NCBI RefSeq assembly: GCF_003148885.1
Contig: NZ_QGHD01000001.1
Coordinates: 1 to 64,000 of the forward strand
Direction: 5' to 3'
DNA: 64,000 nucleotides
DNA from: Hallerella porci
GTDB taxonomy: Bacteria > Fibrobacterota > Fibrobacteria > Fibrobacterales > Fibrobacteraceae
In this document: positions 61,060 through 64,000 of the stretch, piece after piece
Layout of the letters: each line of letters opens with the position of its first letter
Position numbering within the stretch: position 1 is the stretch's first letter
Program-made: the position numbers and the translations under genes
The notes under the pieces: model-generated
Database searches by the model: none
Seen by the model: only the letters and a program-made list of their open reading frames with translations
What the model was told of the DNA's origin: nothing

Positions 61060-61090
61060 CAAGCGTCAAGCTTTTGCTTGACGCTTTTAT
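61060..61090 (+). terminator. Second hairpin after the fibro-slime gene
   Basis: AGCGTCAAGC-TTTT-GCTTGACGCT is a perfect 10-bp stem followed by TTTAT. It is a backup terminator or an insulator ahead of the phosphate transporter promoter. Confidence 0.8.
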
Positions 61091-61116: not shown

Positions 61117-61160
61117 TGTAAAATCCATGTAAAATCGGTGTAAATCTTCTCTAAAATCAA
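61117..61160 (+). promoter_or_regulatory. Four 11-bp direct repeats, Pho-box-like
   Basis: TGTAAAATCCA, TGTAAAATCGG, TGTAAATCTTC and TCTAAAATCAA follow head to tail at 61117, 61128, 61139 and 61150 with exact 11-bp phase. PhoB binds direct repeats with 11-bp spacing on one face of DNA. The array lies 47-90 bp before the Pit phosphate transporter, and a PhoB-like gene follows that transporter. Regulation by that protein is an inference. Confidence 0.6.
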
Positions 61161-61206
61161 CGATTTCGCCCTTTTTCTGCTGTAAATTTTTGCGTAATTT
61201 TAAGGC

Positions 61207-63447
61207 ATGGATATTTACGTCATTATCATCGGAATGCTTTTTACTCTCGCCGTTTTTGATTTGGTCAACGGCGTTTCCAACGATGCGTCGAACTTTTTGA
61301 ATTCGGCGGTCGGCTCTCGAGCTTTTGGTTTTAAATTCTTAATCGCCATCGCAGCGGCGGGAATTTTAATCGGCGCATCTTGTTCAAGCGGGATGATGGA
61401 CGTGGCGCGTCACGGTATTTTCCAACCGGAGCATTTTACCTTTGCCGAAATCATTTCAATTTGCGCGGGCGCGATGCTCACCGATGTGGTGCTTCTCGAT
61501 ATTTTTAATTTGCTCGGGCTCCCGACTTCGACGACGGTTTCGATGGTCTTTGAACTTTTGGGCGGAACATTTTCGCTTTCGTTAATCAAATTAAATCGCG
61601 GAGCGGCGGGGCTGCACCTCGGCGATTTAGTGAATACCGAAAAAGCGCTTTCGGTGATTATTGCGATTTTTACTTCGGTCGCGATTGCTTTCGTTTTTGG
61701 TTGGCTTGTGCAATGGATTTCGCGTGCGCTTTTCACATTTCGTTACAAATCGCGGGAACGTTACTTCATCGCTATTTTCGGCGGGCTTTCGTTAGCGGCA
61801 ATTTTTTATTTCGTTCTTTTTCAAGGGCTCAAAGGTTCTGCGCTTTCGATTCCGGCGGTGCTTACGCAAAATAAACTCATGACATTCTGCGGAAGTTTTG
61901 TGTTTTTCGCATTGCTTTCGGAATTACTTTTTTTGCTAAAACGAAACGTGCTCAAATTGATTGTCGCTGCGGGAACATTTTCGCTTGCGCTTTCGTTTGC
62001 CGGGAATGACTTGGTGAATTTTATCGGCGTTCCGCTTGCGGGGCTTTCGGCGTTTATCTCGTATTCGAATAGCGGACTTCCGGCGGATCAAGTTTTGATG
62101 ACAGCGCTTTGCGGTTCGGAAAAAAGTTTGTGGTGGATTCTTTCGCTTGCGGGAGTGATTATGGCGATTTCGCTTGCGACTTCGAAGAAAGCGCGCGGCG
62201 TTATTCAGACTTCGGTTTCGCTTTCGAGTCAAAGTTCGTCAGAAGAATTATTTGGCACAAGTCCGATTGCGCGGGCGGTTGTGCGTTATGCGGATTCGGT
62301 TTCGTCCATTGTCACAGGCATTGTGCCGGCGCGGATGCGGCGTTTTTTGCGGAATCGTTTTGATGTGCGCAATTTGCATTTGGAAGAAAGCGATGCGGCT
62401 TTTGATTTGTTACGTGCTTCGGTCAATTTAATGCTCGCAAGTATTTTAATTTCTCTCGGCACATTTTTGAAGCTTCCGCTTTCGACAACATACGTCACTT
62501 TTATGGTGGCGATGGGAACGTCTCTCGCCGATAAAGCGTGGGGAAGAGAAACCGCAGTTTATCGCATTACCGGAGTGCTTTCGGTAATTGGCGGTTGGTT
62601 CTTTACCGCATTCGCTGCGTTTGTCTGCGCATTTATCGTCAGCGGAATCGTCTTCCTCGGCGGCATTTCCGTTGCGCTTTTACTCTTTGCACTTGTCGTT
62701 TGTTTTATCATCCGTTCTTCCATTCGTTACCGCAAAAAATCCGCGGAGAAAAATTCGAGCGCCGAAGAATTTCACGCCATCATCGAAGAAAAAGACCCGA
62801 CGAAAGTTCTCCCGCTTGTGCGCAAACATTACGCCGAAGGCTGGGGTTGGTATTTGGTTTTTGTAGAAGACTCGGTGCACGATACGCTTCAAGCGCTTGC
62901 GCACGATGATTTGGATACGCTGCGTTACGTGCGACAAAAAATGAAAGAGGAATATAAAACGCTGCATCGTCTGCGGAAAGAAGGATTTGCTTGTTCGCAA
63001 AAAATGACAGTCGATGATTCTCTCGCCAAAAAATTTTTCTTGTATCAAGCAAACGATTTTGCGATGTCGCTTTACTTTAGTTTGGAGCGCGCATTTAAAC
63101 CGTGCTTGAATCATGTGGACAATCACTTGACGCCGCTTTCTCTCAAGCAAAAAAATATCATCTTAGAAATTGCTTCGGAGATGCGCGATGTCATCGAAGA
63201 TTCGGCGCGGATGGTTTTGGAAAGCGATTACACGGAATTTGAAAATTTGAAAAATCGCATTCGTTCTGCGGGCGCAAAAATTGTGAGCATTCGCAAAGAA
63301 ACGATGCAAAAAAATATCGCCGAAAATCAAAATGTGGCGAGCGTCAATTTGCTTTTCTTAACCGTTCTCTATGAATGTCGCGCCATTCTCGATGCGACGA
63401 TTTATCTCACAAAATCTTCGAAGAAAATGATGACGGATTTCATCTAA
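61207..63447 (+). CDS. PiT-family inorganic phosphate transporter with cytoplasmic C-terminal domain
   Basis: This 746-residue protein has the PiT GxNDxxN-like signature (NGVSNDASNFLNSAVGSR) and the equivalent second-half motif SLPSTT-like (FLKLPLSTTYVTFMVAMG), with about ten to twelve helices to residue 515. The rest, about 230 residues, is helical and charged like a PhoU domain, which is normally a separate protein (Pit accessory). It takes up phosphate with H+ or Na+. A fusion of Pit and PhoU-like parts would couple transport to signalling. Confidence 0.9.
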   Translation: MDIYVIIIGMLFTLAVFDLVNGVSNDASNFLNSAVGSRAFGFKFLIAIAAAGILIGASCSSGMMDVARHGIFQPEHFTFAEIISICAGAMLTDVVLLDIFNLLGLPTSTTVSMVFELLGGTFSLSLIKLNRGAAGLHLGDLVNTEKALSVIIAIFTSVAIAFVFGWLVQWISRALFTFRYKSRERYFIAIFGGLSLAAIFYFVLFQGLKGSALSIPAVLTQNKLMTFCGSFVFFALLSELLFLLKRNVLKLIVAAGTFSLALSFAGNDLVNFIGVPLAGLSAFISYSNSGLPADQVLMTALCGSEKSLWWILSLAGVIMAISLATSKKARGVIQTSVSLSSQSSSEELFGTSPIARAVVRYADSVSSIVTGIVPARMRRFLRNRFDVRNLHLEESDAAFDLLRASVNLMLASILISLGTFLKLPLSTTYVTFMVAMGTSLADKAWGRETAVYRITGVLSVIGGWFFTAFAAFVCAFIVSGIVFLGGISVALLLFALVVCFIIRSSIRYRKKSAEKNSSAEEFHAIIEEKDPTKVLPLVRKHYAEGWGWYLVFVEDSVHDTLQALAHDDLDTLRYVRQKMKEEYKTLHRLRKEGFACSQKMTVDDSLAKKFFLYQANDFAMSLYFSLERAFKPCLNHVDNHLTPLSLKQKNIILEIASEMRDVIEDSARMVLESDYTEFENLKNRIRSAGAKIVSIRKETMQKNIAENQNVASVNLLFLTVLYECRAILDATIYLTKSSKKMMTDFI

Positions 63448-63513
63448 ATTTTACAAAACGAAAACGCCGAATTTACTTTTGAGTTTTACTTTATAGGAAA
63501 AAGGAAAGACGAA

Positions 63514-64000
63514 ATGATTTGCGTAGTTGAAGACGATAGCGATATTCGCGAAATGGAAGTTTACGCGCTGAAAAGTGCGGGTTATAAAGTGCTCGCTGCA
63601 GCATCTTCCGAAGAATTTTTTCGAGAACTCGGACTTGAAATTCCTGCGCTTGTCATTTTGGATGTGATGCTTCCGGGACGCGACGGCTTTTCAATTCTGA
63701 GCGAATTGCGGCATCGGGCGACGACATCCAAAGTTCCTGTGATGATGGTAACGGCGAAGACGACGGAAATGGATAAAATCAAAGGACTCGATTCAGGCGC
63801 CGATGATTATCTCACCAAGCCGTTTGGCATTATGGAATTTTTGGCGCGCGTGCGCGCCCTTTTGCGGCGGGCAGAAATGAAAGGTGAAGTCGTCGCAGCA
63901 AAGCCCGCAGAATTGCATCTCGGAAAAATTGAAATCGACGATGAACGTCATCAGGTCAAAGTCGATGGAAATTTAGTCGAATTTACTTTTAAAGAATATG
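63514..64000 (+). CDS. OmpR/PhoB-family response regulator, cut by window end
   Basis: The first 162 codons are visible from ATG 63514, with AAGGAAAG ahead. The receiver has VEDDS, the phospho-acceptor Asp in LDVMLPGRDGF, the Thr/Lys (MVTAK, LTKPFG) and then the start of a winged-helix domain (EIDDERHQVKVDGNLVEFTF). It follows the phosphate transporter by 66 bp and probably is the PhoB of this organism; a PhoR kinase may lie beyond the window. Confidence 0.88.
   Translation, partial: MICVVEDDSDIREMEVYALKSAGYKVLAAASSEEFFRELGLEIPALVILDVMLPGRDGFSILSELRHRATTSKVPVMMVTAKTTEMDKIKGLDSGADDYLTKPFGIMEFLARVRALLRRAEMKGEVVAAKPAELHLGKIEIDDERHQVKVDGNLVEFTFKEY

Follow-up and report, generated by a model that had tools for sequence, protein, structure and literature searches.

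The PiT-phoB-phoR locus

The window analysed here comprises the whole stretch C1:1-64000 (64,000 nucleotides) of the Hallerella porci genome, which holds 2,847,960 bases in 78 contigs (G000). Near its end lies a gene for a PiT-family phosphate transporter of 746 aa (61207..63447, + strand; PF01384, 78.3 bits; cut-off, 33.7), the first gene of PiT-phoB-phoR. Its orthologue in the relative G005 was 80% identical. The following gene on the same strand (63514..64000, continuing to contig position 64227) encodes a phoB-like response regulator of 237 aa with a receiver (PF00072) and a winged-helix C-terminal domain (PF00486), both over cut-off. The best NCBIfam model for this regulator was PhoB TIGR02154 (218 bits, under the equivalog cut-off of 296), and its score against NF053854 was 203.5 bits (cut-off 270). 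The next gene, just past the window (contig 64205-65869), encodes a phoR-like histidine kinase in which HisKA, HATPase_c, and PAS_8 exceeded their cut-offs and PAS_9 fell just under (26.8 versus 27); it also scored under the cut-offs of its best models (PnpS, 309 versus 400; PhoR (phoR_proteo), 274 versus 334). A reading made from the letters alone (the sequence-only reading) had placed a PiT transporter and then a response regulator after a repeat array, and these surroundings were as claimed. The gene before the array carries a fibro-slime domain, and a terminator-like hairpin (61061..61086, + strand) was predicted between the two, on the weak basis of a pattern scan that returned 12 sites versus 5.7 in shuffles.

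Further phosphate genes were located outside the window. A PiT paralogue (PiT2) was found at C1:281811-284048, and the pst locus on C2, where pstS is divergent from a porin-like gene that is followed by pstC, pstA (assigned from its position and PstC similarity), pstB, phoU, an exopolyphosphatase gene, and ppk1. The porin-like product, whose gene opens the pst operon (L070:10834-11841, G000:C2), is secreted, was judged porin-like by eye, and had no Pfam or NCBIfam match; its relative in G012 has an array of its own. As a separate observation, PstS (L070:12061-12927, G000:C2; likewise in L150, L146, and L152) appears circularly permuted: the N-terminal half of PBP_like_2 aligns with residues 177-287, and the C-terminal end of SBP_bac_11 with the earlier residues 82-165. 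The permuted order was seen in four of five proteins scanned (own genome, G014, G005, and G009) and the ordinary order in G022; a literature search for this permutation returned nothing relevant.

An 11-bp-phased array upstream of PiT

The array (61117..61160, + strand) consists of four units, in order TGTAAAATCCA, TGTAAAATCGG, TGTAAATCTTC, and TCTAAAATCAA, which start exactly 11 bp apart. Based on its sequence, the shuffles, and the relatives, we propose that it serves the PiT promoter as a set of PhoB binding sites. A repeat search found 20-mer copies at 61117, 61128, and 61139 (spacing 11 and 11). The units at 61117 and 61128 are exact copies of TGTAAAATC and are strong, whereas the units at 61139 (TGTAAATCT, three mismatches to TGTAAAATC) and 61150 (TCTAAAATC, one mismatch) are weak. 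The sequence-only reading had seen four TGTAAAATCnn repeats; the positions and the exact 11-bp pitch held up, but given the mismatches in units 3 and 4 the array is therefore better described as two exact and two imperfect units.

The array is real and far above chance. A pattern of two units, allowing at most 3 mismatches, occurred twice in the window, whereas 100 shuffles averaged 0.19 and never reached 2; a three-unit GTAAA pattern occurred twice versus 0.00 in shuffles. With 40 units taken from relatives, excluding the own genome, we also built a weight matrix; the array scored 36.1 bits and the best non-overlapping place in the window -12.2, with a matrix that is sharper than an unbiased one because its units were chosen as strong. 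Among these 40 units, positions 2-6 were invariant, in part through that selection, and positions 8-11 were weak. The pitch in relatives is likewise 11 bp, with one 10-bp step in several of them. The core of TGTAAAATC proposed from the window did not survive this comparison: relatives have A or G at position 7 and variable bases beyond, which rules out strict TGTAAAATC, and sequence comparison gives TGTAAAR (R being A or G) as the conserved core, followed by four variable bases. The array thus displays two features of a Pho box, direct repeats with an 11-bp pitch and units of about 7 conserved and 4 variable bases.

The motif at phosphate genes in the own genome and in relatives

The exact pair TGTAAARN4TGTAAAR occurred twice in the own 2.85-Mb genome, upstream of both PiT paralogues, and a reversed-pattern control gave 0. 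Over the six genomes of the own genus, all 8 exact matches were upstream of PiT (reversed-pattern control, 3). The other 32 genomes held 15 exact pairs, only 3 of them at phosphate genes, namely PiT in G017 and both pstS and the porin-like gene in G012. The G017 PiT gene (L068, G017:C118) is split into two reading frames of 491 and 247 aa; its array is present and phoB was not detected. When one mismatch was allowed, the pair was not enriched (40 matches versus 104 in the reversed control for a looser form; 22 versus 18 in a further search). The one-mismatch matches include the pst intergenic region (C2:99920-99937, +; 99957-99974, -), and this search was dropped as a regulon finder since it performed no better than the reversed control. 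Other loci of the own genome, on C4, C8, C13, and C48, were examined for open reading frames only.

Two models trained on relatives, with the own genome excluded from both, were then compared: R2 from seven PiT arrays and R1 from seven pst promoters. In each genome the best 138-150 first-pass candidates were scored, and E-values are rough. With R2, the window array ranked first in the own genome (E 2.7e-5), and the pst region and PiT2 third and fourth of 7 (E 0.12 and 0.13). With R1, pstS ranked first of 11 (E 5.4e-5), followed by the window array on the other strand (E 0.0055) and the pst operon (E 0.0137). The models also detected sites that belonged to neither training set, at pst of G022 and G023 and ahead of phoB in G016. 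A genome scan for the motif at phosphate genes, suggested by the sequence-only reading, thereby marked the two PiT paralogues, pstS, and the pst operon, and the motif is enriched at phosphate genes, as a Pho box is.

Across the family, a phoB orthologue (E <= 1e-50) was present in 27 of 61 genomes, in three operon layouts. Where phoB follows PiT (13 genomes), the array precedes PiT in 13/13. Where phoB has no preceding PiT (8 genomes), the array stands directly before phoB in 8/8; the upstream DNA of 6 of these 8 shows phoB preceded by a gene with a shared opening sequence (one residue differs in two), which was a Na/Pi cotransporter in the one case scanned. In the 6 genomes with phoB inside the pst locus, boxes were present in all 4 assembled pstS upstream regions, the weakest being that of G022. 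The strict element GTAAARN5ATAAAACCTTTG was found exactly in 20 of 61 family genomes, 19 of them phoB-positive. Within genus g2 it occurred in 15/15 phoB-positive versus 1/15 phoB-negative genomes (Fisher 2e-7, with ancestry ignored), the single phoB-negative genome carrying it at a PiT gene truncated by the end of a contig. The strict element was not found in the own genome or G005, and its one-mismatch matches in G011 and G023 look like chance. The site was present and phoB was not found in both G017 and G023. A second full element of the PiT/phoB type was noted in G069 (L286, G069:C4:447408-447430, minus strand) before a gene for a secreted Ig-like-domain protein (He_PIG), a possible extra member of the Pho regulon.

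Two promoter layouts

We collected 24 PiT/phoB promoters, of which 16 remained after dropping those 85% or more identical, and used as anchor the downstream-most strong unit, picked by eye before counting. In this layout TGTAAAR faces the gene, and 44 bp (four units) further on TTG-N20/21-TAnnTT follows in 14 of the 16 non-redundant promoters. The form with TTG or TTT and exactly N20 was found in 13/16 versus 0.0175 expected from shuffles, and the N20 spacers average 35% identity. The window conforms to this register: a proposed PiT promoter, TTT-N20-TAATTT (61172..61200, + strand; TTT at 61172-61174, TAATTT at 61195-61200), begins 44 bp after the start of unit 2, an offset shared with relatives, although its -33 part is degenerate, with TTT where most relatives have TTG. 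The own PiT2 promoter has the full TTG-N20-TAACTT. In one promoter, that of phoB in G066, TTG stands at 22 bp; here an extra array (L257:2976) lies between PiT and phoB, and TTG follows two units downstream instead of at 44 bp. In G031 and G035 we considered a terminator or attenuator between the array and PiT, and rejected it, as the hairpin coincides with the spacer of the TTG...TAGTTT promoter.

Upstream of 63 own genes, TTG-N19/21-TAnnTT was not enriched (7 sense, 9 antisense, 7.5 shuffled), so these regions lend no support to a general housekeeping role for TTG-N20-TAnnTT. Because the motif is not enriched upstream of genes generally, its promoter role rests on conservation. TAnnTTTG occurred upstream of 16 of the same 63 genes in sense and of 9 in antisense, with a shuffled mean of 7.6, and resembles the Bacteroidetes -7 element.

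The pst promoters are built differently. All 11 pst promoters examined carry TTTACN-N9-TAnnTT, along with further boxes 22-23 bp and, in most cases, 33-34 bp upstream, and TTG 20 bp before TAnnTT was present in 0/11. Relative to the PiT arrays, these boxes point the other way, and they occupy the place that a -33 element would take, whereas the array at PiT is set 44 bp upstream of that position and does not adjoin the -10. Directly before phoB in the window we predict a second Pho promoter of this pst type, TTTACA-N16-TTTACT-N9-TACTTT (63450..63492, + strand; expected 0.01 in the window for a stricter form with one mismatch allowed), which the sequence-only reading had overlooked. The pattern TTTACN-N16/17-TTTACN-N9-TAnnTT, drawn in part from the own pst promoters, was found at three places only in the own genome, pstS, the pst operon, and 63450-63492, with 1 in the reversed control. 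Boxes that adjoin the -10 in place of a -35 are thus seen at pst promoters and probably at 63450-63492. The matching PiT-phoB interval of G005 lacks a pst-type site and so gives no sign that 63450-63492 is conserved. The array had been proposed to control both PiT and phoB; such control is likely, but it is unlikely to act through the array alone because the pst-type site adjoins phoB.

Discussion

The array is conserved, stands in a fixed register with a promoter motif, and is linked to phoB and pst operons. On this sequence evidence it is very probably a Pho box of its lineage (probably Fibrobacteraceae), made of tandem 11-bp sites of TGTAAAR plus four bases for the PhoB-like regulator encoded two genes on. 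The original proposal of a Pho box for this regulator is therein retained, with the motif at phosphate genes and phoB operons in its favor; its core becomes TGTAAAR and its strong units number two.

Comparison with known systems places the array among response regulator sites of the same build. The E. coli Pho box, bound by PhoB, is like the array a set of tandem 11-bp direct repeats with 7 conserved and 4 variable bases, and, like the PiT array, it has its TGT...A core directed toward the gene. The E. coli box differs in lying over the -33 position, whereas the PiT array is 44 bp upstream of that position, and the pst boxes here face the other way. The excerpt of PMC2648988 gives it as two 11-bp repeats with the consensus CTGTCAT. 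An E. coli-type core is not found at the array, which has TGTAAAR, and other lineages also differ. In Bacillus subtilis the PhoP box consists of TTHACA repeats, which TTTACA, the reverse complement of TGTAAA, fits, and PhoP boxes adjoin the -10, a position they share with the pst boxes described above. The claim of a lineage-specific core therefore holds only in part. B. subtilis belongs to a different phylum, with a sigma contact motif other than TAnnTT. A literature search on the orientation of PhoP repeats returned nothing relevant. The PHO box of Streptomyces has the core GTTCACC, which differs from TGTAAAR, and pitH2 is not known to be linked to phoP-phoR, unlike PiT here. The PHO box before this Pit gene in S. 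coelicolor and S. avermitilis is nevertheless similar to the array, with 11-nt direct repeats in two good and two weaker units, and its control is PhoP-dependent, with activation by PhoP, according to the excerpt of PMC7866108. For Riemerella anatipestifer (Bacteroidota), the portion of PMC9603813 available gives TTTAACA as the most conserved bases of the PhoP motif and binding of PhoP at -156 to -121, upstream of its own phoPR operon. TTTAACA is close to TTTACA here, with a core one base longer, but that portion describes no 11-bp array or pst link, unlike the situation here.

We favor activation as the effect of PhoB on PiT-phoB-phoR, and infer from sequence the binding of PhoB, the response to phosphate, and the sign. 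When phosphate is scarce, PhoB in its phosphorylated form would occupy the two strong units head-to-tail, spread across the weaker units toward the promoter, and change transcription from TTN-N20-TAnnTT ahead of PiT. The second, pst-type site before phoB would allow PhoB to increase expression of its own operon, as would the sites at pstS and the pst operon for those genes. Under phosphate limitation, phosphorylated PhoB would most likely drive pst, phoBR, and PiT alike. It is possible, though less likely than not, that one PhoB reads the 11-bp unit in two opposite orientations and geometries, in reverse with boxes ending 9 bp before TAnnTT (pstS, pst operon, and phoB) and forward at 44 bp in arrays before TTG-N20-TAnnTT (PiT and phoBR).

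The same Pho box may instead act with the opposite sign, with PhoB repressing PiT from the forward-facing upstream array and activating pst and phoB from the reverse-facing boxes next to TAnnTT. The systematic difference in orientation and position between PiT arrays and pst boxes would suit such a division, as would the -33-like TTG, which is kept in PiT promoters and absent at that spacing from pst promoters. Precedents for pit genes point in both directions: Sinorhizobium controls its low-affinity Pit system reciprocally to Pst (excerpt of PMC8829014), whereas Streptomyces pitH2 is activated by PhoP (excerpt of PMC7866108). Repression sits poorly with the PiT-type layout being the sole site seen before phoB-phoR in 8 genomes, where autorepression of the regulator would be unusual, and we regard the opposite sign as possible but unlikely.

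It is distinctly improbable that the array is the site of a different OmpR-family regulator whose action on phosphate genes is incidental. The encoded regulator does score under the PhoB cut-off, the genomes hold other response regulators (many first-pass candidates), and arrays were found in G017 and G023, in which phoB was not detected; against this, the site tracks phoB over its three operon arrangements, and 14 of the 15 g2 genomes that lack phoB are without it. Least probable of all, and very much so, is that the repeat is an A+T-rich coincidence or the leftover of a tandem duplication with no regulatory role. The pattern is short and A-rich, and its one-mismatch forms are common by chance, yet the exact pair and the two-box pattern are specific genome-wide, the units are conserved, and the 44-bp register is fixed despite spacers that average 35% identity. 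By sequence comparison, this conservation already contradicts the chance reading.

A search of open-access papers found no description of a Pho box or of phosphate control in Fibrobacter. The array would belong to a well-known kind of genetic switch, within which the pair of promoter layouts could prove new. The analysis thus offers a concrete, predicted Pho box and two promoter layouts for a lineage for which no description was found in that literature. The 44-bp register over diverged promoters predicts that a PhoB-family protein would act from upstream with promoters of the TAnnTT type, and the TGTAAAR motif may be used to annotate Pho regulons in the family.
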